The notes under the pieces: generated by a model
The model's database searches: none
Seen by the model: only the letters and a program-made list of their open reading frames with translations
What the model was told of the DNA's origin: nothing
Shown here: positions 2,268 to 15,433 of the stretch, piece after piece
Layout: each line of letters starts with the position of its first letter
Numbering within the stretch: position 1 is the stretch's first letter
Origin: a virus
DNA: 22,508 nt
Virus record (IMG/VR): IMGVR_UViG_3300027608_000167
Span: 1 to 22,508 of that record
Reading direction: 5' to 3' (one strand)
Made by a program: the position numbers and the translations under genes

Positions 2268-3587
2268 CTATCTCAAACCCTCATACGGGTTGTATTCCTT
2301 CTTCGCTGCACGCCCACCACCATAGACCTCGAGCATGGTCTTCTTATACACAGGGAATGCAAAGGTGAGCGCCAGCGCGTCCCCCAGGTCAGGGCTGGGC
2401 AGGCCCCGCTTCTTGATGTCGTCCTTGGGCTCGAGCTGCAACCGACCCATCGCGTCGTACCAGTAAATGGGTGCAGCCAAGTCTTGTTTGAGGTCCACCA
2501 GGTTCGGTATCGCGCCCCCCATGCGCAACCACTCACGCATCTCGAACCACATCTCGGCTCGTTTGTTCAAGTACATCGGGTCGGTGGGCCGTCCCCCAAA
2601 GTGCACCTCAATCGGGTCATAGCCGAGCTGGCGCAACCGGTCAATCACCCCTCCCCCCTGGCCAGAGTCGATGAAGGTGGCGTCCGGCTTCCACTCGTCG
2701 ATCTTTGCTGCCACTCGTGCAGCCAAGTCCATGTTGTCAATGCCGCGGTAGATGATGGGAGCCAAGGCACCAATGCCCTGCCTGGGGAAGATCACGCTGC
2801 GGTCGTCTCCAAAGCGTGCCGGGTCCACGCCCAGGATACGCGGTGCATACTCGACCTCAACCGGTGTCACCTCACGCTGTGCTGCTGACTCCACATCGGA
2901 GAGGGATATCAACTGGTCGTCACCGGCTGCACTGAAGTCGCAGAGGTACTCACGCTGGAACGAGGTCTCGCTCATGTCGCGCTTTAACCTGCTCACCTCA
3001 TCAGGGTCAATCGAGTGCGTGTCATAGACCGTGTACTTGGCTGAGTGCCAGTCATCGTATTGAGCAGCTCTGAAGTAGAGCTCAGAGAACAGGTTGACCC
3101 CAGCCGGTGTGCCTATGAAAAGTGCCCAGCCCTTGCGGTCTGATAACGCAGGTTGTAAGACATCGTTCCACACCGCGGGCTTGATCTGTGCCACCTCATC
3201 GATCACGCAGCCGTCAAGGCGGACGCCGCGCATGGCTTCCCCGTTGTCGGCGCCAAAGATGCGCACGATGGCACCGTTGTGAAGGAAGCGCACACTGAGC
3301 TCGCTCTCGTTGATCTCCACCGCTGAGTGCTGGCGCATGGGCTCCAAGCGTGCTTTGAGGCGTGCCCAAGCAATGGCCTTGGCCTGCTTTAAGAACGGTG
3401 CAACGTAGAAGAACAGGCCCAGGTCAAGCTTAAATTTGAGTGCCTCGTGCAAGAGCTCCATGATGGCCAGCTCCGTCTTGCCGGCACGCCTGTGCAGCGC
3501 CAGCACCGTGAAGCGCTTACGCGAGCGATGGCACTGCTTTTGCCAGTCGCGTGGGAAATAGCCCAGGCCCACATCTTTCTCAGTCAC
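2268..3587 (-). CDS. terL: Terminase large subunit (packaging ATPase-nuclease)
   Basis: A 439-residue motor protein that pumps DNA through the portal and cuts concatemers. The ATPase half shows an arginine-rich Walker A (HRRAGKTE, residues 32-39), Walker B plus catalytic Glu (GCVIDEVAQ, 126-134) and the coupling motif FIGTP (157-161). The RNase H-like nuclease half shows acidic residues in GVDPARFGDDRS (253-264, Asp255), FIDSGQGGG (305-313, Asp307) and SPDLGDALALTF (398-409, Asp403). Length is typical of compact podovirus terminases. It starts at GTG 3587, overlapping the preceding gene by 8 nt without a clear Shine-Dalgarno, which suggests re-initiation. A 62-bp gap (2206-2267), holding only a weak TTGCGC/GCGCAA dyad, separates it from the SET gene. 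Confidence 0.96.
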   Translation of the reverse strand: MTEKDVGLGYFPRDWQKQCHRSRKRFTVLALHRRAGKTELAIMELLHEALKFKLDLGLFFYVAPFLKQAKAIAWARLKARLEPMRQHSAVEINESELSVRFLHNGAIVRIFGADNGEAMRGVRLDGCVIDEVAQIKPAVWNDVLQPALSDRKGWALFIGTPAGVNLFSELYFRAAQYDDWHSAKYTVYDTHSIDPDEVSRLKRDMSETSFQREYLCDFSAAGDDQLISLSDVESAAQREVTPVEVEYAPRILGVDPARFGDDRSVIFPRQGIGALAPIIYRGIDNMDLAARVAAKIDEWKPDATFIDSGQGGGVIDRLRQLGYDPIEVHFGGRPTDPMYLNKRAEMWFEMREWLRMGGAIPNLVDLKQDLAAPIYWYDAMGRLQLEPKDDIKKRGLPSPDLGDALALTFAFPVYKKTMLEVYGGGRAAKKEYNPYEGLR

Positions 3588-3927
3588 GGGTAATGCCCGT
3601 GATCACGTTGATCGTGATGCCACCCTCTATGTTGCCCTTCAACTCGGTGGGTAAGACTTTACCGATCAGCCCCATAAAGGCCCCTGGGTTGGCCTTGGCC
3701 TGCTCGGTCAAGTACACCTGGCCACCGGCGTCGTGCAAGGCGCCAATGATCATGTCCTTGATCTGCTTGTTCATCTTGTTGGGCTCACCTTTAGTGCGTC
3801 CCTGCCCCATTCGCAGGTTGGCCAACGACCGCTCACGGCTGGTAAGCGCTCGAGCCGGTGTTGCGTCCAGCGCAATGTCTGTGATATCAGTAAATGTCTC
3901 TACTTTTTTGACGTCTGTCTTGCTCAT
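3580..3927 (-). CDS. Putative terminase small subunit
   Basis: A 115-residue protein immediately upstream of, and overlapping, the large terminase gene. The motif GQGRTKGEPNKMNKQIKDMI followed by GALHDAGGQVYLTEQAKANPGAFMGLIGKVLP resembles the GRPKGTPNK-type basic tail plus helical block common in phage proteins encoded next to terL. Small terminases recognise the packaging site and regulate the motor. Position supports that job, but the sequence does not prove it; a DUF5681-like protein of unknown function is the alternative. The ATG at 3927 overlaps the upstream TGA (ATGA) and is preceded by GAGGTGG, a good ribosome-binding site. Confidence 0.62.
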   Translation of the reverse strand: MSKTDVKKVETFTDITDIALDATPARALTSRERSLANLRMGQGRTKGEPNKMNKQIKDMIIGALHDAGGQVYLTEQAKANPGAFMGLIGKVLPTELKGNIEGGITINVITGITRD

Positions 3928-4181
3928 TCATCCACCTCGAGTCTCTTCCAACCGAATGGCGTCTGCGCCCGTCGGCGGTACTGACAGACCCCGGCAATCA
4001 TGCTTTTGGAGACCCCGTACATCTCTGCGAGCTGTGAGTATTTCAAATCATGGTCCTCGTGCAAGTCCCGTATCCTGTCGATCTGCTCATCGGTGAGCCG
4101 GGCGTTGGGGTGGTCCTCCCCAATGCGCTTGCCGTCCGCGTTGTATGCAAACATCTTGTGCCTGGCCATAAGCATGTCCAT
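3924..4181 (-). CDS. Small helix-turn-helix protein, first gene of the terminase operon
   Basis: Residues in the middle read LTDEQIDRIRDLHEDHD, then KYSQLAEMYGVSKSMIAGV and a basic CQYRRRAQTP segment, a convincing resolvase/sigma-like helix-turn-helix. It may be a late regulator or a DNA-recognition subunit for packaging. An ATG at 4211 is in frame, but it lies upstream of the predicted transcription start (-10 at 4202-4207), so I place the start at ATG 4181, preceded by AGAGA at 5 nt spacing; ATG 4175 or 4169 is also possible. The stop overlaps the next start (ATGA). The gene sits directly behind the repressor-type promoter at 4202-4232. The HTH is clear and the function open. Confidence 0.75.
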   Translation of the reverse strand: MDMLMARHKMFAYNADGKRIGEDHPNARLTDEQIDRIRDLHEDHDLKYSQLAEMYGVSKSMIAGVCQYRRRAQTPFGWKRLEVDE

Positions 4182-4201: not shown

Positions 4202-4232
4202 ATATTAACATTGTATTAATATAATCTCAACA
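4202..4232 (-). promoter_or_regulatory. Leftward terminase-operon promoter with overlapping operator
   Basis: Read on the minus strand: -35 TTGAGA (4230-4225), 17-bp spacer, TGT extension and -10 TAATAT (4207-4202). The -35 lies at positions 3-8 of a 19-bp imperfect palindrome (4214-4232, 6 of 9 symmetric pairs). The layout is identical to three other elements in this window. It occupies the 59-bp space between RusA and the HTH gene and implies that packaging genes start a new, repressor-controlled transcript near 4195. Confidence 0.7.
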
Positions 4233-4240
4233 CGTTGCGT

Positions 4241-4594
4241 TTATGTAAACACTCTGATGTAAACAACTACCCTCCCAGGCTTTGCAGGCTCGGCCCAAAT
4301 GATGTGCTTGGACCGGATCTGCGAGTCGTCCCGCCATACGTTGGCCTTGGTCAGCGCGTCGCCAATCACCTTCCACGCGTTGTCCATGTCTCTGACCCGC
4401 TTGTCCGGGGGGGATAAAAGAACCTCAATGACCAGCGCCTGCTCCAACCCCATGCAGGCACCCTGAAACCGGCAGGCATGGGCCACCGCGGCGTAGTACT
4501 CAACCACCCCCTTGACCAGGTAATGGCGCCCACCCTTGGTGTGCCTGTACATGTGGTTGCCCGATATCGGTGGGTATGGGATAACAAGGTTCAT
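4241..4594 (-). CDS. rusA: RusA-family Holliday junction resolvase
   Basis: A 117-residue protein (PF05866 size) that cuts four-way junctions during phage recombination and before packaging. The N-terminus PYPPISGNHMYRHTKGGRHYL matches the RusA PPxxNxxYR opening. The acidic catalytic region PPDKRVRDMDNAWKVIGDAL, then NVWRDDSQI, contains the family's D-x-D-N and W-x-D-D-S-Q patterns. The ATG at 4594 has only a weak upstream Shine-Dalgarno. It is the last gene of the leftward replication operon, and the repeat-rich non-coding stretch 4595-4835 lies between it and the next gene upstream. Confidence 0.9.
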   Translation of the reverse strand: MNLVIPYPPISGNHMYRHTKGGRHYLVKGVVEYYAAVAHACRFQGACMGLEQALVIEVLLSPPDKRVRDMDNAWKVIGDALTKANVWRDDSQIRSKHIIWAEPAKPGRVVVYIRVFT

Positions 4595-4635
4595 TTAGGC
4601 TATGAGTACTTTCAGACTAGTGGTGATTTATGCCC

Positions 4636-4812
4636 GTCCACTCCAGTCCACTTGTAAAGTGGTGGACTGGCGGACTGGTGGATAACTTTTTTGCAGTCCG
4701 CTTTTGCGGACCGGAAAAAGTGAGCATTTATAAGGGTTAGCAGGGTGTTTTTGAAAAGCAGTCCGCAAACAGTCCGCTGCCTAAAAAACAGGCTAGTCCG
4801 CTTAAACGGACT
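4636..4812. repeat. Non-coding cluster of AGTCCGC direct and inverted repeats
   Basis: The gene-free stretch 4595-4835 contains about ten copies of AGTCC(G/A)C. Forward copies lie at 4636 (partial), 4645, 4695, 4760, 4771 and 4795; inverted copies at 4662, 4670, 4706 and 4807. Pairs form dyads: a perfect 9-bp arm CCAGTCCAC (4643-4651) with GTGGACTGG (4662-4670), GTCCGC/GCGGAC around TTTT (4696-4711), and AGTCCG/CGGACT (4795-4812). A reading frame crosses it on the minus strand, but its composition is dictated by the repeats, so I regard it as non-coding. Candidate replication origin or binding site for a phage protein. Confidence 0.72.
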
Positions 4813-4835
4813 GACTTGGTGTAACTCTTTGTGAT

Positions 4836-4946
4836 TCATTTGATCTCAAAGAACCACATCACGCATGCCAGGGCAAACAAGATTACAAACACCACAATGA
4901 GTAGCCCCAACGTCAGCAGCGCACAGCCGACCAGGAGATCAATCAT
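4836..4946 (-). CDS. 36-residue single-span membrane protein
   Basis: A tiny gene from ATG 4946 to TGA 4838-4836. The product is almost entirely one hydrophobic helix (starting MIDLLVGCALLTLGLLIVV, ending MWFFEIK). The start overlaps the stop of the upstream gene (ATGA) and a GGGGTGA ribosome-binding site lies just before it, which makes it more than a chance frame. It should insert in the inner membrane. Its place in the replication operon gives no function; a membrane-tethering or exclusion role is only speculation. Confidence 0.6.
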   Translation of the reverse strand: MIDLLVGCALLTLGLLIVVFVILFALACVMWFFEIK

Positions 4947-5206
4947 GACTTCACCCCGCAAATTTTTTCCATGTAAGCCACATAGCATTGGTCAGGTGTT
5001 TCAAATGCTCTTGAATCACCATCAACAAACCAATATCGCTTCCCTGTACCCCATTTGCCAGTCCGTTTGTTTCGGTCGGTGTACACCTCAACTTGAATGC
5101 TGTGCTTGTCGTTGCGATACATACGTTGTGCGCCAGTATCATTGGTTATTCCCATCCTGTACTCAAAGCGCAGTTCGCAGAATTCATCAAATGTCAGTTG
5201 ATTCAT
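4943..5206 (-). CDS. Hypothetical protein, 87 residues
   Basis: Starts at ATG 5206 behind a good AGAGGTG site and overlaps the following tiny membrane-protein gene by ATGA. The product (opening MNQLTFDEFCELRFEYRM) is rich in aromatic and charged residues, with a likely beta-strand section (HSIQVEVYTDRNKRTGKWG, then KRYWFVDG) and a short helical tail. It has no transmembrane segment, signal peptide or catalytic motif that I recognise. It sits among small accessory genes between the primase-helicase and RusA, so it is probably expressed early with the replication functions. Confidence 0.66.
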   Translation of the reverse strand: MNQLTFDEFCELRFEYRMGITNDTGAQRMYRNDKHSIQVEVYTDRNKRTGKWGTGKRYWFVDGDSRAFETPDQCYVAYMEKICGVKS

Positions 5207-5233
5207 GCTTCACCTCTGGCTCTTGTGAGGAGA

Positions 5234-5362
5234 TCAATCAATATCATCGATCCACTCCTTGGCCTCTATCATTGCCTGCATAACCTTAGCTGCAAAATAA
5301 TCTCGAAGCTCCATACCAATAAATTCATTGCATGGAAATGCGTACATCTTTGGTTTAGTCAT
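5234..5362 (-). CDS. 42-residue conserved-type phage protein
   Basis: Runs from ATG 5362 to TGA 5236-5234. The start overlaps the upstream stop (ATGA) and AAAGGAC lies about 9 nt upstream. The product begins MTKPKMYAFP and contains GMELRDYFAAKVMQAMI, a motif I recall from small phage proteins of otherwise varied length that share a G-M-x-L-R-D-Y-F-A-A core. Here it is short and ends in an acidic WIDDID. The function of that family is not known to me. Coupling, ribosome-binding site and motif together support a real gene despite its size. Confidence 0.68.
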   Translation of the reverse strand: MTKPKMYAFPCNEFIGMELRDYFAAKVMQAMIEAKEWIDDID

Positions 5363-5598
5363 CGCTTTTGTCCTTTCATGTAAATACAAAACCCGGCCAA
5401 GGTGTCCTTGCCGAATGACTTCTCAAAATCGCGCTCAAATGAACTCACCACATGCTCCAGGGCATCGTTCCAGCCGGACAAATAACCAGCGTCGTAGGAC
5501 ACATCGACCGCGTTTTCAAACTCGGCGTGTCGCAGCTTCTTGTACTTAAAGCCCGGCGCACTTTGTGCCATGGTGGGTTTGTTGAATGGTTGGCTCAT
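5359..5598 (-). CDS. Hypothetical protein, 79 residues
   Basis: Starts at ATG 5598 with AGGAG about 7 nt upstream and ends in an ATGA overlap with the 42-residue gene. The product has a Lys-rich N-terminal third, an acidic/aromatic middle (HAEFENAVDVSYDAGYLSGW) likely to be helical, and ends CIYMKGQKR. I see no membrane segment or known domain. It belongs to the run of small coupled genes downstream of the primase-helicase. The coding assignment is good; the function is unknown. Confidence 0.68.
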   Translation of the reverse strand: MSQPFNKPTMAQSAPGFKYKKLRHAEFENAVDVSYDAGYLSGWNDALEHVVSSFERDFEKSFGKDTLAGFCIYMKGQKR

Positions 5599-5607
5599 CT
5601 CAAGCTC

Positions 5608-5796
5608 CTATTTCCTTTTTGTGCTTTCTTTGAATTTCCCCGCCTTGCGAAATATCGTCAGCAACGACTTGTAGGCAACACCGAACCGTTTGGATATTTC
5701 CAACTTGCTGAACCCCTGCTCATGCAAGCTGAATGCCCGTCTCTCATCGATCTGGATGGGCTTACGGCCCGACCCCGCTCTTGCTCCACCTGTCAT
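5608..5796 (-). CDS. Small helix-turn-helix DNA-binding protein
   Basis: A 62-residue protein beginning MTGGARAGSGRKPI, the basic GGxRxGSGRKP opener seen in many small phage DNA-binding proteins. It is followed by ERRAFSLHEQGFSKLEISK and RFGVAYKSLLTIFRKAG, a resolvase-type helix-turn-helix. The ATG at 5796 overlaps the stop of the primase-helicase (ATGA) and uses an AAAGGAG site located inside that gene. It may help the replication protein find its origin or regulate the operon, both inferred from position. Another basic HTH gene, at 3924-4181, lies further down the same strand. Confidence 0.75.
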   Translation of the reverse strand: MTGGARAGSGRKPIQIDERRAFSLHEQGFSKLEISKRFGVAYKSLLTIFRKAGKFKESTKRK

Positions 5797-7697
5797 TCGT
5801 AATCTCCTTTGGGCTCGTGATAGAACTTCACACCTGCGGGCCTACCAGGTAGCCCAGGCTTTGCGTCCACCTTCAGCCCAGCGCCCAACCTGGACAAAGC
5901 AGACAGGCCCTCGGGGGTGAGCTTTTTGCCATCAATGAACTTGTAGCTGGCCAAGGTCGCCAAGGCTTTGCGCATTTGTCGGTGCGAGCACACCACCTCT
6001 TTTTCTAACTTCGCCTCAGAGATAGCGCCCTGTTCATTCAAAACGCTCAAAATCTCGTGGGCATAAATACTCGTCTTGTCGTCACGATGGGCCACTACTT
6101 GCAGTGCCAAGTTGCCCGCGTGCTCAAGCACCGCACTGGTGACGGGCAAGCCTTCGTCGTCCAGCAAACCGAGGTCCACACCCTTTAAAGACATCACCAT
6201 CTCGGGCGGTATGTCGGCGTCCTTCATCTTGGTCACGCGAATGGTGACAACGCCCGCCGCGTCCTTGGTGATCTCAACCTCTGAGTCAACCGCAGCGCGC
6301 AGTGCAGAGCTCCCCCGCGCGCGCTCCATGCTGTGCCCAGAGTGATGAACGATCAGCACTAGACAGTTCCACCGCTGACGGATGTGCTTGTCCAGGTGGT
6401 GGATAAATTTGCTCATGTCCTCGGTGGAGTTCTCGTCCCCGGCACCAAAGTTACGCGCTAAGGTATCGACCATCACAGCCGCTGGCCACTCACCCGTGAC
6501 CTTGTAGCGTCGCTCGATCTTTCTCACCATCTTCAACACCTGGGCTTCATCCAGAATGGACAACGCACCCGCGGATTTGTAAATCTTGTCCCTGGGCACC
6601 ACCACCCCACGCGCCAGCTCCCACGCCTTAAAGCGCCTGGCCAGCCCGTTGTGGCCCTCGCCTGCGATGTAGAACACAGAGCCCGGTTTTGTTTTATGGC
6701 CAAACCACGGGGTGTTAAGCGCGATAGAGCTTGCGATGTCAACCGCAAAGAAACTCTTCCCACACCCCGGCTGGCCATACACCAACGCAATCGAGTCGCG
6801 CTCAAAATAATCGCGCACCGACCAATCGATCTGCTTGATGTCTTTGATCAGGTCATGCACATCGATAAAATCAAAATCATCGTCGTCTTCGTCTTCGTCA
6901 CTGTCGAATGCCTCGACCGCATTAGCCCGGATCTCTTTAAGCCCAGCACCCGCGGCCACCCAGTCGGCCAGGTCCTTGCCGACCAAGGGCTTCAATGTCT
7001 TAATACTTTGCGCCTTGCCCTGCAATGTCTGCAACACCCAAGCAGAGTGGCGCTCGCCCGACACATCCTGGTCAGGGATCACGACAACATCAGCACCCTT
7101 AAACACATCCCCAAACTCACGGGCCCACTTGTTGCCGGTGCCGTTGTCCGCACCCATCGCGTTGCAGGTCGCGACCAAGCCAAGGGAGCGGGCGACCTCT
7201 ACGTCCTTTTCGCCCTCGCAGATGTAGATTGTTTTTTTGTTGGCAATGCCCTCGAGCACCTCGGGTAGGCGGTACAACACGCGCCTGGCCCCCTTGATGG
7301 ACCAGTCCCAGGTGTTCTCTGTGAGGGGCCTGCGCTGTCTAAAATCTTTCGGCTCATACCGCACTGCTTGGTAAAGCAGCTCGCCCTCTTCGTCCACATA
7401 GTCGTAGGTGGCCACGATGGTTTTAGGTTGGCCAACCGTGGGCAAATCAATGATGACGGGTGTAGGCGCTTTGTAAGGCTCGGTGCTCGTTGGCCACAAG
7501 CCCTGCATGCGCAGGTAGCTGATTACCTCCACCGGGTCACACCCCGCGTGGCAATGAACCAGCATCTTTCCGCTCTTGTCCGTGATCGACAAACTGGCGT
7601 GCGCGTCCTCGTGCGCTGGACACCGGCATGACCAGTTATCCCCCGAGAGTCTGGCACCTCCCAGGTTTCGGGCAATCGCTTCAGCCGATATTTCCAT
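5793..7697 (-). CDS. Primase-helicase (zinc finger, TOPRIM, RecA-like ATPase)
   Basis: A 634-residue replication protein. Residues 24-53 form a CHC2-type zinc finger (CRCPAHE, then VHCHAGC). A TOPRIM primase domain spans about 155-250 with EGEKD at 161-165 and PDQD at 208-211. A strongly acidic linker (265-279) follows. A RecA-like helicase/ATPase domain (AAA_25 type) starts at about 290, with Walker A GQPGCGKS at 308-315 and Walker B VMVDTLARN at 408-416; the VLIVHHSGH strand is at about 447-455. The C-terminus resembles a winged helix. It should prime and unwind phage DNA. A GTG at 7703 is in frame, but the ATG at 7697 has AAGGA at 9-nt spacing and is preferred. It is transcribed from the promoter at 7816-7846. 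Confidence 0.92.
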   Translation of the reverse strand: MEISAEAIARNLGGARLSGDNWSCRCPAHEDAHASLSITDKSGKMLVHCHAGCDPVEVISYLRMQGLWPTSTEPYKAPTPVIIDLPTVGQPKTIVATYDYVDEEGELLYQAVRYEPKDFRQRRPLTENTWDWSIKGARRVLYRLPEVLEGIANKKTIYICEGEKDVEVARSLGLVATCNAMGADNGTGNKWAREFGDVFKGADVVVIPDQDVSGERHSAWVLQTLQGKAQSIKTLKPLVGKDLADWVAAGAGLKEIRANAVEAFDSDEDEDDDDFDFIDVHDLIKDIKQIDWSVRDYFERDSIALVYGQPGCGKSFFAVDIASSIALNTPWFGHKTKPGSVFYIAGEGHNGLARRFKAWELARGVVVPRDKIYKSAGALSILDEAQVLKMVRKIERRYKVTGEWPAAVMVDTLARNFGAGDENSTEDMSKFIHHLDKHIRQRWNCLVLIVHHSGHSMERARGSSALRAAVDSEVEITKDAAGVVTIRVTKMKDADIPPEMVMSLKGVDLGLLDDEGLPVTSAVLEHAGNLALQVVAHRDDKTSIYAHEILSVLNEQGAISEAKLEKEVVCSHRQMRKALATLASYKFIDGKKLTPEGLSALSRLGAGLKVDAKPGLPGRPAGVKFYHEPKGDYE

Positions 7698-7739
7698 GCG
7701 CACCCGTCCTTCATTTTTACCCTGCCCAAAGAGTCAAAA

Positions 7740-7815
7740 GGTGCCAGCGCTGACGTTGGGACAGGAGATCAACACCCAATTGGGATCAGCAATAAGGTCC
7801 AGCGCTGGCGGTTGG
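7740..7815. repeat. Two related 20-bp repeats in the primase-helicase leader
   Basis: Segments 7740-7759 and 7796-7815 are near copies built around CCAGCGCTG, the second containing a perfect CCAGCGCTGG palindrome. A CCCAATTGGG palindrome lies between them. They fall in the roughly 110-nt untranslated leader between the leftward promoter and ATG 7697, where no gene is evident. They may be a protein-binding or RNA-structural control site. Confidence 0.5.
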
Positions 7816-7846
7816 AATATAACACCGTGTTGAGATAATCTCTACA
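7816..7846 (-). promoter_or_regulatory. Leftward primase-operon promoter with 19-bp operator
   Basis: Read on the minus strand: -35 TAGAGA (7844-7839), 17-bp spacer ending in TGT, -10 TATATT (7821-7816). The overlapping palindrome at 7828-7846, TGTTGAGATAATCTCTACA on the plus strand, is symmetric at 8 of 9 positions and is the best operator in the window. It overlaps the stop codon of the Cro-like gene. Repressor bound here should block replication genes. Confidence 0.75.
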
Positions 7847-8132
7847 TTCCAGACAGATCAAAAACTGTCAAGGTGTGACCCTGGTCCTGCGCAGCAACAA
7901 TTAATGGGCCCCAATACTTCTGTGGAATCCTGCCGCCCGTGCCATTCGCAGCAGCCGAGGTCGTCCAGCGTGACACAGTGCCCGGGTTGAGGTTCAAAAT
8001 ACCCGCCAATTTACGGCACCCACCAAAGGAATCCACCACGCTTCGCGCAGGCTGCGCATTGTGTTTGATGTTGTTGGTAATCATTTTATTTTCAATATTG
8101 TTATTTAGACCAATATTTTCATTTTTATACAT
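7842..8132 (-). CDS. Cro-like helix-turn-helix regulator
   Basis: A 96-residue protein read leftward, divergent from the repressor gene. The first 28 residues are Asn/Lys-rich and probably disordered. The rest (SVVDSFGGCRKLAGILNLNP, then GTVSRWTTS) is a typical short Cro/YdaS or carph-isopro-type helix-turn-helix as found opposite phage repressors, ending AAQDQGHTLTVFDL. The ATG at 8132 has AAAGGG 5 nt upstream. It likely opposes the repressor at the shared operators and favours lytic growth. A weak promoter (-35 in the 8189-8208 operator, -10 near 8166-8171) could serve it. Confidence 0.78.
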   Translation of the reverse strand: MYKNENIGLNNNIENKMITNNIKHNAQPARSVVDSFGGCRKLAGILNLNPGTVSRWTTSAAANGTGGRIPQKYWGPLIVAAQDQGHTLTVFDLSGM

Positions 8133-8188
8133 ACAAACCCTTTATGACATATCTGTTACACATGTTAAAAATCATTCCGAGCAAAAGT

Positions 8189-8208
8189 TGTTGAGTCTTA
8201 CGACAACA
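8189..8208. promoter_or_regulatory. Second operator in the immunity region
   Basis: TGTTGAGTCTTACGACAACA, with outer arms TTGTTG (8188-8193) and CAACAA (8204-8209). It shares the TGTTGAG half-site with the other operators but has one extra central base. It begins 24 bp before the operator at 8213, suitable for cooperative binding. On the minus strand TCAACA (8194-8189), a 17-bp spacer and TGA-TTTTTA (to 8166) form a weak candidate promoter for the Cro-like gene. Confidence 0.5.
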
Positions 8209-8212
8209 AATA

Positions 8213-8243
8213 TGTTGAGAAGGTCGCAACAGTATGATATTCT
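8213..8243 (+). promoter_or_regulatory. Repressor promoter with overlapping operator
   Basis: -35 TTGAGA (8215-8220), 17-bp spacer ending TGA, -10 TATTCT (8238-8243). The 19-bp operator TGTTGAGAAGGTCGCAACA (8213-8231) is symmetric at 7 of 9 positions and covers the -35, so the repressor probably limits its own synthesis. Predicted transcription start is about 8250, just before the C tract. Confidence 0.68.
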
Positions 8244-8258
8244 ATCCTCAATTTATCA

Positions 8259-8269
8259 CCCCCCCCCCC
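8259..8269. repeat. Run of 11 cytosines in the repressor leader
   Basis: An uninterrupted C11 tract lies between the predicted repressor transcription start and the chosen GTG start. Such tracts are prone to slipped-strand change and to sequencing error. Confidence 0.9.
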
Positions 8270-8313
8270 AGCAAGTCACGGGCCAGGCAGTCTGTAACGA
8301 TGTAGAAGCTCTT

Positions 8314-8910
8314 GTGAATAACATCATCGATCATTTGTGGTTTGTAGATAAGTTGAGATCGCTCAAGCTGTCTCAGCGCCAGCTTGCCAAAATGATGGGC
8401 GTCGACCCCGCCTCCGTCAGCTACATGCTCCGAGGTAAACGCAACATGTCCATGGGCGAGGCCAAAGAGATCGCTGGCTACTTGAACGTCAACGTCACCG
8501 AGGTCATGCGCCGCGCCGGTATCAACGTCACCGACGACATGGGCCAAATACCCATCGCTGGTTACATCACCAAGGGAAGCCTGGTCTCCCTCCTCCCACC
8601 CGGCACACACGACATGGTCCACGCCCCCGCGGACACACCCCGTGGGTCATACGCGCTGCAAATGCGCAACGTCAACTCAAGTCGCGATGGGTGGCTTTAC
8701 TTTGTAAGCGGCGTGAATGTGACCCCCGAGGACGCACTCGACAAAGCCTGCGTAGTGGCCATGTCCGATGGCTCCATGATCGTGGCCGTCGTCCACAAAG
8801 GCTACAAAAAAGATCTCTACAACTGCCTCGACTTCTCCAACCAGGACCAAGTCTTCGAGAATAAAGAGATCAAGTGGGCATCCAGAATTCTTTGGATACA
8901 ACCTAGCTAA
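8314..8910 (+). CDS. Phage repressor, HTH plus degenerate S24-like domain
   Basis: A 198-residue protein from GTG 8314. The N-terminal HTH is clear (LRSLKLSQRQLAKMMGVDP, then SVSYMLRGKRNMS). The C-terminal half (IPIAGYITKGSLVSLLPPG, then the PRGSYALQMRN block and DGWLYF) resembles the LexA/CI-type S24 fold used for dimerisation. The usual catalytic Ser-Met motif is not visible, so self-cleavage is doubtful. The frame is open well upstream, including ATG 8212, but that codon lies inside the promoter/operator and has no ribosome-binding site. GTG 8314, with a weak AGAAG, follows the predicted transcript start. The gene is flanked by operators at 8189-8231 and 8961-8979. The repressor role is well supported; the exact start is uncertain. 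Confidence 0.85.
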   Translation: MNNIIDHLWFVDKLRSLKLSQRQLAKMMGVDPASVSYMLRGKRNMSMGEAKEIAGYLNVNVTEVMRRAGINVTDDMGQIPIAGYITKGSLVSLLPPGTHDMVHAPADTPRGSYALQMRNVNSSRDGWLYFVSGVNVTPEDALDKACVVAMSDGSMIVAVVHKGYKKDLYNCLDFSNQDQVFENKEIKWASRILWIQPS

Positions 8911-8960
8911 CCTTTTTCATATTGCAAACAAAAGTCCCAAGGGTTTATATATCTAATATT

Positions 8961-8991
8961 TATTGAGAATATCGCAACATGGTGATATATT
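8961..8991 (+). promoter_or_regulatory. Rightward early promoter with overlapping operator
   Basis: -35 TTGAGA (8963-8968), 17-bp spacer ending TGA, -10 TATATT (8986-8991). The overlapping 19-mer TATTGAGAATATCGCAACA (8961-8979) matches the 8213 operator at TTGAGAA and TCGCAACA. It would drive the whole early operon from about 8998. The rest of the 127-bp gap after the repressor gene shows no gene or clear terminator. Confidence 0.76.
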
Positions 8992-9037
8992 TCGTTTGTG
9001 GCAACCGACGCCATGCAACTACGAAAGGACCCCCGCC

Positions 9038-9229
9038 GTGACCACCCGCCTCTTTATTCGCACCGACCTGGACGTATTCAACGATCCAGACGAGCTGCCC
9101 AGCATCTTTGAGTCTCTCGCCCTGGTCCTACGCAGCACCGGCGACTTCCCCCAAAACATCTCTGACTCTCACGGTAACACTGTGGGCTATGTCATCTCTT
9201 TTTGCGCCAGCAATGATGAGGTAATCTAA
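9038..9229 (+). CDS. Hypothetical protein, first gene of the early operon
   Basis: A 63-residue protein from GTG 9038, chosen because AAAGGA lies 8 nt upstream. A longer frame beginning with TTG 8963 would start inside the early promoter. The product opens VTTRLFIRTDLDVF and has a charged, mixed alpha/beta look (DELPSIFESLALVLRSTG, then GNTVGYVISF). I recognise no domain. As the promoter-proximal gene it should be among the first made on induction, a position where phages often place host-takeover or anti-repression genes. Nothing in the sequence shows which. Confidence 0.66.
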   Translation: MTTRLFIRTDLDVFNDPDELPSIFESLALVLRSTGDFPQNISDSHGNTVGYVISFCASNDEVI

Positions 9230-9231
9230 AC

Positions 9232-9393
9232 ATGTGTAGATACACACAACATACCCTGCTGACCCGTGAAGAACGGATCAGTGAATTGCACCGGCGCCTC
9301 GAGCGCCGCTCCATGGCCGCAGCAGACCTGTTGCTCGCCCTGGTCATTGGCGTTGCCTTGGCCTCTCTCCTTGTGAAGTGGTGGTCGTCTTGA
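9232..9393 (+). CDS. 53-residue single-span membrane protein
   Basis: From ATG 9232 to TGA 9393, two bases after the previous stop, with GAGGT about 10 nt upstream. An N-terminal basic/amphipathic part (TREERISELHRRLERR) is followed by one hydrophobic helix at about residues 30-48 (ADLLLALVIGVALASLLVKW). The topology is probably N-in. Small membrane proteins at this early position can act in superinfection exclusion, but I have no motif to support that. Operon spacing and overlap with the next frame support coding. Confidence 0.6.
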   Translation: MCRYTQHTLLTREERISELHRRLERRSMAAADLLLALVIGVALASLLVKWWSS

Positions 9394-9545
9394 ACAACTT
9401 ACCCCCCATCTTTCAAGAAGCGCTGCGCCCTTTTGCGCCACGCCCTCAACCCTCCTCCCCCACAACCCTCCCCCCTACCCCAATTGGGGGGATACCCCGG
9501 GGCATACCCCAAAACACGTTACTTTTCATAAGTGAATTCTCATGA
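9390..9545 (+). CDS. Proline-rich 51-residue protein (TTG start, tentative)
   Basis: A frame opening at TTG 9390, overlapping the previous stop, reads LNNLPPIFQEALRPFAPRPQ and then a Pro/Thr/Ser/Gly-rich tail. It ends with TGA 9543-9545, overlapping the next ATG (ATGA). The amphipathic LPPIFQEALRPF head looks like a short helical binding motif. Tight overlaps on both sides favour a gene. The GC palindromes CCCCAATTGGGG (9478-9489) and CCCCGGGG (9495-9502) inside it mean that a structured leader for the next gene is a fair alternative. An in-frame GTG at 9381 could also start it. Confidence 0.42.
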   Translation: MNNLPPIFQEALRPFAPRPQPSSPTTLPPTPIGGIPRGIPQNTLLFISEFS

Positions 9546-9937
9546 TCATTGAACTCAACATCCGCCTTGACACCCACGCCGGCAACAACAGCATCGCCGA
9601 GTGCACCCGCCGCGCTATCGACGCCTTGGACTTGCTGCACATCGCTTTTGGTGAAGTCCATGGTCGCCGCCTGGACCTGCAAGTCGAGAACGAGTACATC
9701 GACCGGCTTGACCTTCACCAGCTCCTGCTCGTGCGCATCGACAACTGCAAGTTACCCAAAGACCTGGCCCGCAAAACCATCTTTGATTTGGCCGAGCTCC
9801 TGGAGCAAGACTGCATCGCCGTCTATTACCCCAGCCAACAACGCGGCGAGTTACTGGGCACCCGCTTGGGTGAGTACACCGATGGCTTTGACATCAACAA
9901 ATTCATTGACTTTCAAGAATCCGTTTCAACCAACTAA
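9542..9937 (+). CDS. Hypothetical protein, 131 residues
   Basis: Starts at ATG 9542 with only a weak upstream AAG and probably relies on coupling to the preceding frame. The product begins MIIELNIRLDTHAGNNSI and is acidic with several strands and helices (LDLLHIAFGEVHGRRLDLQV, then HQLLLVRIDN). It looks like a compact soluble alpha/beta protein. No catalytic motif, membrane segment or zinc site is apparent. It is followed after 13 nt by the DUF7173-like gene, so it belongs to the early replication/recombination operon. Confidence 0.68.
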   Translation: MIIELNIRLDTHAGNNSIAECTRRAIDALDLLHIAFGEVHGRRLDLQVENEYIDRLDLHQLLLVRIDNCKLPKDLARKTIFDLAELLEQDCIAVYYPSQQRGELLGTRLGEYTDGFDINKFIDFQESVSTN

Positions 9938-9950
9938 AAGGAGCACCCCT

Positions 9951-10355
9951 ATGAACACAGTTGCCGCCCTCTCCCTGGTCGTCACCCCCGAGCAAATCGT
10001 CAACGAGCTCGTCAAAGCCAAGCACGCCGAAGCCCAGGCCAACAGGGCCCGCGTCGCCCTGGAAGAGCAACTCATTAACTTGCTCGGCAAGCGCCAAGAA
10101 GGCTCCCAAACCCATGACCTGGCCAACGGGCTCAAAGTCACCATCACCGGCAAGCTGTCCTACAAAGCCGACATGGAAAAGCTGCAAGCCATCTGCGCAA
10201 AACTCCCGCTTGAAATGCGCCCGATTAAAACCGAAATCAAGCTCGATGAGACCGGCGCCAAGTTCCTTCGCGCCAATGAGCCCGCCATCTGGGCGCAGCT
10301 CTCCCTCGCCATCACCATCAAGGATGCCAAGCCAAGCGTTGAGGTGAAGGCGTGA
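9951..10355 (+). CDS. DUF7173-like early phage protein
   Basis: A 134-residue protein with an excellent AAAGGAG site before ATG 9951. The first 60 residues are an alanine/glutamate-rich helix, probably a coiled coil (KAKHAEAQANRARVALEEQL). The rest (HDLANGLKVTITGKLSYK, then PIKTEIKLDETGAKFLRANE) matches my memory of a family encoded beside Sak4-type ATPases in proteobacterial phages. Its biochemical role is not established to my knowledge. The frame continues upstream without a good start, so the annotated start is clear. It overlaps the next gene by GTGA. Confidence 0.75.
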   Translation: MNTVAALSLVVTPEQIVNELVKAKHAEAQANRARVALEEQLINLLGKRQEGSQTHDLANGLKVTITGKLSYKADMEKLQAICAKLPLEMRPIKTEIKLDETGAKFLRANEPAIWAQLSLAITIKDAKPSVEVKA

Positions 10356-10540
10356 GTACCGTTGCTGACAAGTACGAAGACAGCGAGTTTGAAGACCTGC
10401 TCGACGCCGCCGCTTCTAGCGCCACCAACGGCTGGGAAGAGCAGTTTGTTTCCGACATTCGCGATAAGTGGGAACAGTACGGTGCTCGCATGTATTTGTC
10501 CGAAAAGCAGGGGGAAATCCTCAACAGACTTGCCGGATAA
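10352..10540 (+). CDS. Small acidic early protein
   Basis: A 62-residue acidic protein from GTG 10352, overlapping the previous stop (GTGA). The tail WEEQFVSDIRDKWEQYGARM then YLSEKQGEILNRLAG resembles a short conserved phage motif (W-E-x-x-F-V-x-D, R/M-x-LS-x-x-Q-x-x-I-L) seen in small genes of recombination operons. It is probably an accessory or protein-protein interaction factor. No enzymatic residues are evident. The 57-bp space after it (10541-10597) shows nothing notable. Confidence 0.7.
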   Translation: MSTVADKYEDSEFEDLLDAAASSATNGWEEQFVSDIRDKWEQYGARMYLSEKQGEILNRLAG

Positions 10541-10597
10541 CAACTAATCTGCTTGGCCTATTGGTCTGGCACCTTTAAACCTAATGAAAGCAACCTC

Positions 10598-11341
10598 ATG
10601 GCTATCGATCTGAAATCCATCAAACGCTCAAGCGGCATCAAAGCGCCCCGCGTCATGCTCTACGGCCCCCACGGCCTGGGCAAAACCACCTTTGCCGCAG
10701 GTGCACCTAACCCCATCTTCATCCTGACCGAGGACGGCTTGGGGCTGCTGGAGGTCGACCACTTTCCGCTGGCCACGTCCTACACCGACGTGATGGACGC
10801 CATCGGCACGCTCTACCAGGAGGACCACAACTTTGGCTCTGTCGTCATCGACTCGCTCGATTGGTTAGACAACCTGATCTGGGTTGACATCAACGCCAGC
10901 CATGACGCCAAAGACCTGGCCTACGGCAAAGGTGCCGTGATCGCTGCCGAGTACTGGAGAGGCATTCTTGACGGCCTAAGCGCCCTGCGCGATGAGCACG
11001 GCATGGCCGTGGTGCTGGTCGCCCACACCGAGATCAAACGCTTTGACTCGCCCGAGACCGAGCCCTACGAGCGCTACCAACCCAAGCTCCAGGCCCGCTC
11101 CTCGGCCATCGTGCAGGAGTGGTGTGACGCGGTTCTTTTTTGCAACTACAGAGTCGTCACCAAAGAGACCGACGTGGGCTTTAACAAGGAAGTGCGCCGC
11201 GGCATCACCACAGGCGAGCGCCTGATCTACACCAACGAGAAACCAGCTTACCTGGCCAAGAACAGGTACGGCTTACCCGACAGCATGCCGCTGGCATGGA
11301 GTAATTTTTCAAATGCAATTTCTTCAACCACCGCCAACTAA
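10598..11341 (+). CDS. Sak4-like RecA-fold ATPase (AAA_24), probable phage recombinase
   Basis: A 247-residue nucleotide-binding protein of the AAA_24 (PF13479) type, the group that includes Sak4 single-strand annealing recombinases. Walker A is GPHGLGKTT (residues 23-31) and Walker B is SVVIDSL (81-87). A VVLVAHTE strand follows at about 138-145, and conserved YGKGAVIAAEYW lies between. These proteins bind single-stranded DNA and support annealing or strand pairing, often with a phage SSB-like partner. The ATG at 10598 is preferred over upstream TTG 10553 because the protein then begins at the conserved domain, though its Shine-Dalgarno is weak. DUF669 follows 12 nt downstream, the usual partner arrangement. 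Confidence 0.85.
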   Translation: MAIDLKSIKRSSGIKAPRVMLYGPHGLGKTTFAAGAPNPIFILTEDGLGLLEVDHFPLATSYTDVMDAIGTLYQEDHNFGSVVIDSLDWLDNLIWVDINASHDAKDLAYGKGAVIAAEYWRGILDGLSALRDEHGMAVVLVAHTEIKRFDSPETEPYERYQPKLQARSSAIVQEWCDAVLFCNYRVVTKETDVGFNKEVRRGITTGERLIYTNEKPAYLAKNRYGLPDSMPLAWSNFSNAISSTTAN

Positions 11342-11353
11342 GGAGTAAAAACC

Positions 11354-11863
11354 ATGGCACAACTTAACTTCCAAGCCGACCCCAACCAAGCTGTCAACAG
11401 CTACGACCTCTTGCCCAAGGGCAAGTACCTCGCCATGGCCATTGCCTCAGAGATGAAGGACAACTCCAAAAAGACCGGCTCCTACCTGCAAATCACCTTC
11501 GAAGTGATGGACGGCCCACACAAAGGTCGCAAAATTTTTGACCGCTTAAATATTCGCAACACCAACAAAGTGGCCGAGAAGATTGCAATGGAGTCTTTGA
11601 ACGCGCTTTGCCTGGCCACCAACATGCACCACTTGACCGACTCCGAACAACTGCACGACCGCCCGGTGCTGCTCGACATCAGCATTGAAGACGGCAAAGA
11701 CGGCTATGACGCACAAAACCGCGTCAAGTCCTACCACCCGGCCAACAAAACAAGCGCCGCTCCAGCGCCTGTGCAAACACACGCAAGTGTCGAGTCAGCA
11801 GCTCAACCGTCCACCAGTGCGGCAACGCCCGTGTGGAAGCAAAAAAAATCCGCAGCGGCCTGA
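11354..11863 (+). CDS. DUF669 protein, possible SSB-like recombination partner
   Basis: A 169-residue protein with a strong AAGGAG site before ATG 11354. Residues 1-125 fit DUF669 (PF05037): a DLLPKGKYLAMAIASEMKDN opening, then KTGSYLQITFEVMDGPHKGR and a beta-rich core. The last 45 residues are Ala/Ser/Pro/Gln-rich and disordered, ending in basic WKQKKSAAA. The body-plus-flexible-tail layout recalls single-strand-binding proteins, and DUF669 genes commonly sit next to AAA_24 ATPases. An SSB-like role is an inference from context, not shown by motifs. Confidence 0.8.
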   Translation: MAQLNFQADPNQAVNSYDLLPKGKYLAMAIASEMKDNSKKTGSYLQITFEVMDGPHKGRKIFDRLNIRNTNKVAEKIAMESLNALCLATNMHHLTDSEQLHDRPVLLDISIEDGKDGYDAQNRVKSYHPANKTSAAPAPVQTHASVESAAQPSTSAATPVWKQKKSAAA

Positions 11864-11902
11864 TCAGCCTGCCTGCCCCTTAACTTAAACAGGAGATCAA
11901 TT

Positions 11903-12205
11903 ATGAAAAAGCTTATTGCACTTGTGTCCTCGGTGGCACTCATCACACTGCTCACCGCATGCGCGGCTGGCTCATCTTGGAACGCAAGCCTGGGCAACCC
12001 CTCCTCCAGCGACACCGACACCAAACTCATTGTCGAAAAGGAAGTGCAGCCCATGAGCAGGAACGAAATCATCGTGGCCGTCAAAGAGTGCGAGACCTCG
12101 GGCCTGCGTGCCGTGGTGGTCTACGCCAAGCGGCGCATCAACGGCGTCAAGTCCGACGTTGTGGCCGATGTCTCTTGCGCACCTAAATTCACTAACCACT
12201 TTTGA
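11903..12205 (+). CDS. Small exported lipoprotein
   Basis: A 100-residue protein with a classical type II signal peptide: MKK, a hydrophobic core ALVSSVALITLL, and the lipobox LLTAC with the lipidated Cys at residue 20. The mature part is about 80 residues, with a Ser/Asp/Thr linker and then a compact domain (NEIIVAVKECETSGLRAVVV, ending in SCAPKF). It contains two further cysteines that could pair in the periplasm. AGGAG lies about 8 nt before ATG 11903. A lipoprotein inside the early recombination operon is unexpected. Phage lipoproteins (for example T5 Llp) can block receptors against superinfection, but that is only a hypothesis here. Confidence 0.82.
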   Translation: MKKLIALVSSVALITLLTACAAGSSWNASLGNPSSSDTDTKLIVEKEVQPMSRNEIIVAVKECETSGLRAVVVYAKRRINGVKSDVVADVSCAPKFTNHF

Positions 12206-12220
12206 AAGCTCATCCCCCCC

Positions 12221-12433
12221 ATGGCAATCATCATCATCACCGTTCAAGACACGCCAGAGGGCTCAATTGACGTGCGCATGCACAGCGAGCCTTTTGTGTC
12301 TCCTGGTCAAACCGACTTCACCCAGGCCCAGCGCATGGGTGCCATCGCATTGAACGCAATACACGGAGCCCTTGAAGAGACCTCGCCCATCGTGATGACG
12401 GGTGGGAACAGCAAAATTTTTATGCCTAACTGA
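12221..12433 (+). CDS. Hypothetical protein, 70 residues
   Basis: Begins at ATG 12221, 15 nt after the lipoprotein stop, with only a poor GAAAG site. The product (MAIIIITVQDTPEGSIDVRM, then a QAQRMGAIALNAIHGALEE helix) has the strand-strand-helix look of small early phage proteins of unknown role. It has no signal, membrane helix or catalytic motif. Thirteen bases separate it from the nuclease gene. Coding is likely from operon fit and composition; the function is not recognisable. Confidence 0.62.
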   Translation: MAIIIITVQDTPEGSIDVRMHSEPFVSPGQTDFTQAQRMGAIALNAIHGALEETSPIVMTGGNSKIFMPN

Positions 12434-12446
12434 TCCGGGAAACGAC

Positions 12447-13547
12447 ATGGCCAAACTACCTGCTCCCATCAACACCACCTCTGAACAGATCGTCCAGTGG
12501 TACGAAAAGAAAACGGAAGCGCCCAGGCCCCACCTGGGCTGCTCCGAGCTTGGCAAAGAATGCAAGCGCGCCCTGTGGTACAGCTTTCGCTGGGCGTCAA
12601 ACAAAAAATTTCCAGGCAGGATCAAGCGCCTCTTTAGCACCGGCTTTCGCGAAGAGGCACGCTTCCTAGAAGAGCTGCGCGGTATCGGTGCCGAGGTCCA
12701 TGAAGTGGACCCAGAGACTCAGCGCCAGCACCGCTTCACCGGCTACAAAGGCCACCTCGCAGGCTCATGTGACGCGATTGGCCGCGGCCTGCCAGAGGCA
12801 CCAAAGACTTGGGCCATCATCGAATTCAAAACCCACGGCGACAAAAGCTTCACCGACTTGGTAAAGAAAAAAGTACAAGAAGCCAAGCCCGAACACTACG
12901 CACAGCTCCAGCTCTACATGGGGTTTGCCGAGCTCGAGCGTGCCCTTTATTTAAGCGTCAACAAAAACACCGACGAGCTCTACAGCGAGTGGGTGACGTT
13001 TGATGCATCAGAGTTTGAAAAGCTCCAGGCCAAAGCGCAACTCATCATCGATGCCGATGAACCCCCGCTAGGAGTCAGCACCGACCCAGCCTGGTACCAA
13101 TGCAAGATGTGCGACCACCACGCGGTTTGCCACACCGACCAGATCCCGCAAAAGAACTGCCGCACCTGCCTGCATTCAACCCCCGTCGAGGACGCCCACT
13201 GGTCCTGTGCGCAGCAAAAAAGACTGCTGCCCTTTGAAGAGCAGCGCCTGGGTTGCCGCTCGCATCTATTTATTCCACCCCTCATCAACTGGGCCGAGCC
13301 CTTGGACGCTGGCGCCGACTGGGTGAAGTACCAAGACCGGGACAGCGGGCTTATTTTTGCAAATGTGTGCGAAGACACCGACCCCTTTGATCCGCTGATG
13401 CCTGCGGACGTGAAGGTCATCTTGACCAGCGCAGAACTTCCTGTGAGTGTGCGCCCCATGGTCAACGACCCGTTTATATCGCAGGTGCAAAAAGCCTATC
13501 CAGGCTCGCGAATCCTGAGCTCCAAAATTACTGAACCGGTGCAATAA
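12447..13547 (+). CDS. Cas4/RecB-like PD-(D/E)XK nuclease with Cys clusters
   Basis: A 366-residue exonuclease-type protein. The PD-(D/E)XK core shows Asp109 (AGSCDAI), Glu126 and Lys128 (IIEFKTH) and the QLQLYMGF motif at 153-160. An N-terminal Cys (LGCSELGKECKRALWY, Cys32/39) plus C-terminal KMCDHHAVC and neighbouring Cys (219, 222, 228) fit the iron-sulfur cluster of Cas4/AddB-like nucleases. A second set (Cys238, 241, 254, 270) could bind zinc. It likely resects DNA ends to feed the Sak4-like recombinase. ATG 12447 (GGGAA upstream) is chosen over in-frame GTG 12402, which would overlap the preceding gene. Confidence 0.86.
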   Translation: MAKLPAPINTTSEQIVQWYEKKTEAPRPHLGCSELGKECKRALWYSFRWASNKKFPGRIKRLFSTGFREEARFLEELRGIGAEVHEVDPETQRQHRFTGYKGHLAGSCDAIGRGLPEAPKTWAIIEFKTHGDKSFTDLVKKKVQEAKPEHYAQLQLYMGFAELERALYLSVNKNTDELYSEWVTFDASEFEKLQAKAQLIIDADEPPLGVSTDPAWYQCKMCDHHAVCHTDQIPQKNCRTCLHSTPVEDAHWSCAQQKRLLPFEEQRLGCRSHLFIPPLINWAEPLDAGADWVKYQDRDSGLIFANVCEDTDPFDPLMPADVKVILTSAELPVSVRPMVNDPFISQVQKAYPGSRILSSKITEPVQ

Positions 13548-13562
13548 AAAAAAGGGACAACC

Positions 13563-13856
13563 ATGAAACGAATCGAATTTTTTCAAAGCGCTATATCCCA
13601 ATCAGAGGCACTAGACCACTGCAAATCTGACCAAATGTTTGATTTGATTGCGCAGTACTGGTCAATCTATTTGACCAAAGAGCTGGGCCAAGAATTTGAG
13701 CTTTGCTCGCTCGATATACCCGCCATGGTCGCGCTCATGAAAATGGCCCACGCCCAAGTTCTTCCAGCCAAGGAAGTGTTTGTTGAAAGTCTGGCCTACA
13801 TCGCTATTGCTGGCGAGATGTATCACAAACACAGCACATCAACACCCGATCAATGA
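13563..13856 (+). CDS. DUF6378-like small phage protein
   Basis: A 97-residue helical protein with AAAAGGG before ATG 13563. The pattern MFDLIAQYWSIYL, then DIPAMVALMKMAHAQVL and a SLAYIAIAGEM tail, matches my memory of DUF6378. That domain is frequent in phages and usually reads I-A-x-x-W-S-x-Y-L, M-x-L-x-K-I-A-R, Y-x-A-x-G. In this copy the middle is somewhat diverged. Its role is unknown. The stop overlaps the helicase start (ATGA), so the two are co-translated. Confidence 0.72.
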   Translation: MKRIEFFQSAISQSEALDHCKSDQMFDLIAQYWSIYLTKELGQEFELCSLDIPAMVALMKMAHAQVLPAKEVFVESLAYIAIAGEMYHKHSTSTPDQ

Positions 13857-15433
13857 AGCTTCGCCAATACCAAACCGACGCCATCGAGTCTATCTACTCG
13901 TGGTTCAGCGCGGGCAAGAATGCCCCGCTGATCGTCACCCCCACGGGCTCGGGCAAGTCGGTCATCCTGGCTGACTTTATTCGCCGGGCCTGCACCGAGC
14001 ACCCCGACACTCGCATCCTGGTCGTGACTCACGTTAAGGAGCTGGTTGAGCAAGATGCGAGGGCTATCAAGACAGTGTGGCCACATGCGTCCATCGGTAT
14101 CTACTCCGCTGGCCTGGGTAAGCGCCAGCTCAAAAATATTACTGTCGCCTCCATTCAATCGATCTACAAACGCACCGAGTTCCATGGCCGCTTCGATCTG
14201 ATCATCATCGATGAAGCTCACCTTATCCCCCACAAAACCAGCGGCATGTACAGGAAACTCCTGGACGCGTCCTTAGCTGCCAACCCCTATACCAAGCTCA
14301 TCGGCCTGACCGCCACACCGTACCGGCTCGACAGCGGCTTGCTTCATGAGGGTGAGGGCGCTTTGTTTGATGGCATCAGCTATGAAGCCAACGTGGCCGA
14401 CCTGATCGAGCAAAGCTTCCTGTCAACGCTTGTCTCCAAGCACGGTGAAGATCCCGACCTGGCAGGCGTCAAAGTCACCGCCGGTGAATACAACCTGGGT
14501 GAGCTATCCGAGCGCATGAGCGCCATCGCCCTTGTCGAGCGCCACGCAAACCTGATTGTTGAGCGCTGCGTGGATCGTCACTCGTGGTTGGTCTTTTGCG
14601 TGACCATCGAGCACGCCAGCCAAATGACCGCAGCTCTTTTAAGACGCAACATCAAAGCGGCCTATGTCAGCGGCGACATGTCCAACACCGAGCGCGACGA
14701 ATACATCAACAGCTTCAAGGCCGGTGAGCTCCAAGCCCTGGTCAATTGCCAAGTGCTGACCACCGGCTTTGACTACCCAGCCATTGATGCCATTGTGATG
14801 CTGCGCCCAACCCTGTCGCCTGGTCTGTATGTGCAGATGGTGGGCCGCGGTCTACGCTTGCATGAGAGCAAGACCAATTGCTTGGTGCTGGATTTTGGTG
14901 GGAACGTGCGGCGCCACGGATTCATAGATCAGGTAGTGCCCCCGCGCAAGGGTAAAAAAGGTCCTCCCGGAATTGCACCGGTGAAGGTTTGCCCGCAGTG
15001 CGCGAGCCACGTCCCGATTATGGTTCATGTATGTCCTGAGTGCGAGTTTAAATTTCCCGTGGCTCCTCGCGAAGCCGAGGTCAAAGAATACGCAGGCGCC
15101 ATGCTTAGCAACCAAGTGCCGCCAGTGCACCTTACTGTTAACCAGGTCGAGTACGCCCGCCACTTCAGCAAGTCCGGCGTCTCCTCCATGCGCGTGACCT
15201 ACTACTGCGGCATCCGAGCCTTTAGCGAATATGTGTGCCTAGAGCACGATGGCTATGCCCGCTCCAAGGCGTCGGCCTGGTGGAGTAAACGCTGCCGCCA
15301 GCCCGCCCCCATTTTGATTGACCAAGCCCTGCGCATGTCCCACGACCTTCTTAAGCCAAACAAGATCGTTGTGAATTTCGCAGCCAAGTACCCAGAGATT
15401 AAGCAGTATTTTTTTGAAGGAGCAACAATATGA
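13853..15433 (+). CDS. SF2 DEAH-box helicase with zinc ribbon
   Basis: A 526-residue superfamily 2 helicase. Motif I is TPTGSGKS (29-36), motif II DEAH (120-123), motif III TATP (153-156). The C-terminal helicase lobe has TTGFDYP (303-309) and motif VI QMVGRGLR (328-335). A zinc ribbon follows (CPQC at 380-383, CPEC at 394-397), then about 125 residues unlike the core that may bind DNA. Such RadD/SSL2-like helicases assist phage replication or recombination by unwinding or branch migration. It is coupled by ATGA overlaps to the genes on both sides and is the largest gene of the early operon. Confidence 0.93.
   Translation: MKLRQYQTDAIESIYSWFSAGKNAPLIVTPTGSGKSVILADFIRRACTEHPDTRILVVTHVKELVEQDARAIKTVWPHASIGIYSAGLGKRQLKNITVASIQSIYKRTEFHGRFDLIIIDEAHLIPHKTSGMYRKLLDASLAANPYTKLIGLTATPYRLDSGLLHEGEGALFDGISYEANVADLIEQSFLSTLVSKHGEDPDLAGVKVTAGEYNLGELSERMSAIALVERHANLIVERCVDRHSWLVFCVTIEHASQMTAALLRRNIKAAYVSGDMSNTERDEYINSFKAGELQALVNCQVLTTGFDYPAIDAIVMLRPTLSPGLYVQMVGRGLRLHESKTNCLVLDFGGNVRRHGFIDQVVPPRKGKKGPPGIAPVKVCPQCASHVPIMVHVCPECEFKFPVAPREAEVKEYAGAMLSNQVPPVHLTVNQVEYARHFSKSGVSSMRVTYYCGIRAFSEYVCLEHDGYARSKASAWWSKRCRQPAPILIDQALRMSHDLLKPNKIVVNFAAKYPEIKQYFFEGATI

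Follow-up and report, generated by a model that had tools for sequence, protein, structure and literature searches.

Promoter occlusion by an operator-bound repressor is established for the repressors of lambda, P1 and N15. In N15 and phiKO2, the operators of the CB repressor overlap the promoters of its own gene, of cro and of the replication gene, and CB lacks the residues for self-cleavage (PMC4997575). For P1 C1, 22 operators dispersed over the genome have been reported (PMC8546580), and in cluster A mycobacteriophages one repressor is served by many genome-wide stoperators, some of them within promoters (PMC6550527). Here, we describe a related arrangement in the IMG/VR virus record IMGVR_UViG_3300027608_000167, positions 1 to 22,508, analyzed as one strand (the window, i.e., the whole stretch of 22,508 nt). 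Four 31-bp elements in this window align without gaps, and each appears to be a sigma-70-type extended -10 promoter fused to a 19-bp operator. Judging from the sequence, we consider it likely that a dimer of the CI-type repressor encoded in the window binds this dyad and represses all four.

The locus resembles the N15/phiKO2 CB system in its promoter-overlapping operators and in the lack of self-cleavage residues. However, N15 and phiKO2, which are telomere plasmid prophages, have five 16-bp operators of unrelated sequence, none of them at the terminase genes. The likeness to P1 C1 lies in the dispersed operators and in the repression by C1 of its own promoter, but in P1 the operator is asymmetric and 17 bp long, not a 19-bp dyad. 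Stoperators are asymmetric as well, lie mostly outside promoters and block elongation, whereas the four dyads of the window are located inside promoters and hence do not qualify as stoperators. Multi-operator repressors are therefore already known, and what is new is the operator sequence of this phage; its less usual parts are the operators at the terminase head and the series of -35 registers found at the repressor promoter. In the literature searched, we found no account of terminase genes being repressed directly by a lysogeny repressor, which does not prove that none exists.

The four elements (Table 1) share 18 to 25 of their 31 positions in pairwise comparison, and their gapless alignment confirmed the coordinates and strands given in the initial annotation. 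Positions 1 to 19 form an imperfect dyad common to all four, TGTTGnG-n5-CnCAACA. In each element, the -35 hexamer (TTGAGA or TAGAGA) corresponds to dyad positions 3 to 8 and is followed by a spacer of 17 bp, with a TG at positions 23-24 and a -10 hexamer at positions 26-31 (TAATAT/TATATT/TATTCT/TATATT), which is the geometry that had been proposed, namely, an extended -10 with a TATATT-like hexamer. A generic consensus promoter scanner also picked all four elements and found TGn in every one. The gene map agreed with the further proposal that they precede the terminase operon, the primase operon, the repressor gene, and the early operon.

Table 1. Predicted promoter-operator elements, operator-like dyads and genes of the window
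Feature	Position	Strand	Description	Sequence
Element 1, terminase-operon promoter-operator	4202..4232	-	Operator 4214-4232; -10 4202-4207; predicted start ~4195	TGTTGAGATTATATTAATACAATGTTAATAT
Element 2, primase-operon promoter-operator	7816..7846	-	Operator 7828-7846; -10 7816-7821; predicted start ~7809	TGTAGAGATTATCTCAACACGGTGTTATATT
Element 3, repressor-gene promoter-operator	8213..8243	+	Operator 8213-8231; -10 8238-8243; predicted start ~8250	TGTTGAGAAGGTCGCAACAGTATGATATTCT
Element 4, early promoter-operator	8961..8991	+	Operator 8961-8979; -35 8963-8968; TGn 8983-8985; -10 8986-8991; predicted start ~8998	TATTGAGAATATCGCAACATGGTGATATATT
Second operator-like dyad	4233..4251	.	Adjoins element 1	CGTTGCGTTTATGTAAACA
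Fifth operator-like dyad, without promoter	9214..9232	.	End of first early gene; partly coding
Repressor	8314..8910	+	N-terminal helix-turn-helix (HTH) and lambda/186 CI-LexA-like C-terminal domain; no conserved Ser or Lys
Cro-like DNA-binding protein	7842..8132	-	Divergent from repressor; kept beside repressor in relatives
Primase/helicase	5793..7703	-	First gene of operon behind element 2
Terminase operon	2268..4181	-	Small HTH protein 3924-4181; 115-amino-acid protein 3580-3927; large terminase 2268-3587
Early operon	9038..15433	+	Behind element 4; 63-amino-acid protein, Sak4-like annealing protein, SSB, Cas4-type exonuclease, helicase

We then asked how far these elements stand out from the rest of the window. 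In leave-one-out scans of both strands of the 22.5 kb, every held-out element was among the top four ranks. A stricter matrix was built solely from 48 early elements found in relatives, the window and its near twins being excluded; it ranked exactly these four elements 1 to 4, with scores of 32.7, 30.2, 15.5, and 14.7. The next scores (10 to 12) came from other-strand readings or overlaps of the same dyads and from a site at 9202, and the first unrelated site reached 5.4. In dinucleotide-shuffled windows, the mean best score was 7.1, and hits above 12 occurred at 0.11 per shuffle. Many equal matches inside genes, which the initial annotation had named as a sign against its claim, were not found when the whole window was scanned with the motif. 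Less specific searches of the window were of little use: a degenerate IUPAC pattern allowing three mismatches returned 20 matches versus 14 expected, which is too loose to part signal from noise, and a TTGACA-TGnTATAAT consensus promoter with one mismatch allowed gave zero hits. A palindrome finder overlooked several weak sites, and the trained matrix was used in its place.

A related repressor is encoded at 75 viral contig loci from uncultured phages, as identified by alignment search, while the approximately 85,000 cellular species genomes searched contained no full-length homologue and only short HTH matches. Of 53 distinct loci, 50 retain the early element downstream of the repressor gene, with conservation of both dyad halves, and in 42 of 52 loci, the best early promoter combined a -35 at operator position 3 with a 17-bp spacer. 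Twelve loci carry the primase element downstream of the Cro-like gene, ten of them with the exact register and a 17-bp spacer and two with a 16-bp spacer; all loci sharing the N-terminal part of this primase carry it. Operators also precede terminase-operon genes, namely, the 115-amino-acid gene in 8 of 14 loci and the small HTH gene in 2 of 2 (window included), compared to about 1.5 expected overall, and in several relatives this operator overlaps the start codon. Some relatives harbor further operators before the integrase and Sak4-like genes. None was detected before ssb (0/39 loci), cas4 (0/38), or the helicase gene (0/8; 0/85 together), all of which are internal to the early operon. Over 649 kb, 284 sites scored above threshold versus 6 in shuffled sequence of the same DNA. 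The same operator is thus present at the early, repressor, primase and terminase heads, the pattern of a multi-operator immunity repressor, and the regulon would comprise at least four members.

In most relatives, the operator overlaps the repressor's own promoter as well, usually in a register other than that of the window. The -35 of this promoter, TTGACT, lies at operator positions 9-14 in 22 of 39 loci; in five, it is located 9 bp upstream, and the right operator half serves as the -10; and another five, including the window, share the register of the early promoter. In each of the three registers, the operator covers part of the promoter core, so that repression is to be expected; this suggests negative autoregulation, as does the position of element 3 on the repressor's own promoter.

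With regard to the additional dyads, the terminase head harbors two that abut (4214-4232 and 4233-4251), to which two dimers may bind cooperatively; an abutting pair is also present at the terminase head of the relative L060. Separately, two adjoining operator-like dyads (9214-9251) were noticed at the end of the first early gene, partly within coding sequence, and the first of them is kept in L002.

The candidate ligand of the dyad is the repressor, which matched HTH_3 with an E value of 2.3e-10. Its structure model (predicted local distance difference test [pLDDT] 88) matched the C-terminal domains of lambda CI, 186 CI, and LexA (Z of 9.6 to 10 for the CI proteins). Coliphage 186 CI, although one of the closest structural matches to the C-terminal domain (Z of 9.6 to 9.7), is only about 15% identical in sequence. 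The protein had no S24 Pfam match, and neither an invariant nor a near-invariant Ser or Lys was found in the C-terminal half among 34 homologues. Because the conserved Ser-Lys pair typical of the catalytic site of self-cleaving S24/LexA-type repressors is lacking, self-cleavage is not expected.

Which protein recognizes the dyad was addressed with more distant repressors, 25 to 35% identical to that of the window, from the Bcep22-like podophages JC1 and BcepIL02 and from SopranoGao and Itty13. In the three regions read, the repressor diverges from a neighbor annotated as a transcriptional regulator (unannotated in Itty13), and other genes follow on the strand of the repressor. The recognition helix of these distant homologues is SQLSxTF instead of AAVSxML, and their phages carry another 19-bp dyad at the same places. 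In JC1, we found six TGGTK-n9-MACCA sites, while the reversed control pattern gave none and the TGTTGnG dyad was absent at up to one mismatch. The places occupied include the repressor-early gap, the cro-repressor gap (two sites), and the region upstream of the replication operon. The dyads of Itty13 are of the TGTTT type, and one lies at the repressor-early gap. The dyads of both phages differ from that of the window. The dyad sequence hence changes with the recognition helix, which fits recognition by the repressor. Covariation of operator base 6 (A/C/T) with the recognition helix within the family was uninformative, as that base already varies between the half-sites of a single operator. 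The six 19-bp dyads of Burkholderia phage JC1 (L121 and L125) are also of interest in their own right: they occupy regulatory gaps and are candidate operators of a phage that forms stable lysogens and whose description does not mention operators (PMC9144972).

These data also bear on other possible occupants. The Cro-like protein (7842-8132) could be the main one, or could share the sites as lambda Cro and CI do, and would then lower early and repressor transcription during lytic growth. The divergent Cro-like/repressor pair is indeed kept in relatives, and the protein shows a P22_Cro match, which, like its YdaS match, is weak and below the Pfam cut-offs. We nevertheless regard this as improbable, since a role restricted to Cro explains the operators at the terminase, primase, and integrase heads less well than an immunity repressor does, and phiKO2 Cro binds a single operator (PMC4997575). 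That the dyads are sites for a host regulator borrowed by the phage is far less probable still, given that the dyad follows the phage repressor and that another recognition helix goes with another dyad at the same places. The borrowing of host LexA by some phages, such as GIL01 (PMC4551915), speaks for this reading, but the dyad consensus is unlike a typical LexA box. Least probable of all, and close to negligible, is that these are ordinary strong promoters alike through the sigma-70 consensus and carrying a dyad by chance: the -35 and -10 consensus accounts for part of the similarity, but the right half-site, CnCAACA, falls within the spacer, where it has no promoter role, and is yet among the most conserved parts in relatives, and some operators occur without this promoter geometry.

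Several points weigh against a CI-type repressor that controls all four elements through one design. The Cro-like protein also differs between phages with differing dyads, and its gene accompanies the repressor gene in nearly all loci, so that gene presence cannot separate the two. Element 1 is the weakest of the four by the matrix from relatives and would be marginal if alone. Unbiased half-site counts revealed no difference between early and repressor operators (9.92 versus 10.10 of 12); in 36 of 39 loci, a matrix-based ranking had placed the early above the repressor sites, but this matrix was trained on early sites, and we claim no affinity order among the operators. In addition, repressor binding, repression, cooperativity, and the induction route are what we infer from the features that are shown, namely, the sequences and their geometry, their conservation, their location at operon heads, and the predicted repressor fold. 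Finally, where the -35 falls on the operator is not conserved among relatives for the repressor and terminase genes. Of the initial proposal that one repressor could shut four transcripts by covering the -35, comparison thus supports the placement at operon heads and a single cognate repressor, whereas the shared register does not extend to the repressor and terminase genes of relatives; one design at four places is true of this phage but no family rule at these genes.

If the repressor is indeed the ligand, a dimer on the dyad would cover the -35 as well as the upstream portion of the spacer and thereby exclude RNA polymerase. In a lysogen, the early recombination/replication, primase, and terminase operons would be silenced directly and not through a cascade alone, and repressor bound at 8213 would limit its own synthesis. 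Since the C-terminal domain is devoid of a conserved Ser-Lys pair, induction would probably proceed via an antirepressor or repressor depletion and not via RecA-aided cleavage. Coliphage 186 provides a precedent, being induced through the antirepressor Tum (PMC3121763). The presence of an integrase gene (15835-16761) downstream of the early operon indicates that the phage is probably temperate.

Element 2 is followed by a structured leader RNA of the primase operon (7734-7810, minus strand), which begins at the predicted +1. Compensating changes affect 14 of its 19 pairs in seven phages, and its covariation score was 0.594, whereas shuffles gave 0.22 and slid controls no more than 0.153. A covariance model of the leader gave convincing matches only here, in phages with this primase. 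The start of a conserved leader at the predicted +1 is independent support for the start assigned to element 2. In the relative L049, the leader at the same site (9545-9617, minus strand) matches the Rfam int-alpA RNA (RF02996) with 45.3 bits against a gathering cut-off of 35.8 bits; L049 is the only relative to pass, and the leader of the window gave no match to this family at E values up to 10. A short hairpin begins near the +1 of the early transcript (8992-9037, plus strand, in the window) and is present, with differing base pairs, in about half of the relatives. It may stabilize the transcript.

Two further features of the window were noticed. The leader of the repressor gene contains an 11-C run (8259-8269) downstream of the promoter and ahead of the start codon; this run is approximately 18 longer in the near-identical contig L001, and L002 starts within a run of at least 18. 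Either slippage or an artefact of assembly could account for these length differences. The region 4640-4815, located between the RusA gene and the open reading frame that follows, contains about eight AGTCC/GGACT repeats and a near-DnaA box (GTGGATAAC), which makes it a candidate iteron origin.

A broader scheme can be put forward tentatively, although we would sooner doubt than assert it as a whole. A single repressor would control most operon heads of these phages via a dyad that is fused with the -35, the repressor promoter would be tuned by sliding its -35 (to position 3, to position 9, or to 9 bp upstream, always with a 17-bp spacer), and the structured leader RNA starting at the primase +1 would add a second layer of replication control.

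Overall, a large group of uncultured phages thereby gains a testable regulon, a consensus operator, and a promoter map. The data also connect this group to the Bcep22-like phages, for whose operators we found no description. The shift of the -35 along an operator that stays constant, as seen in the repressor's own promoter, finally, represents a natural series in which to study how register sets autoregulation.

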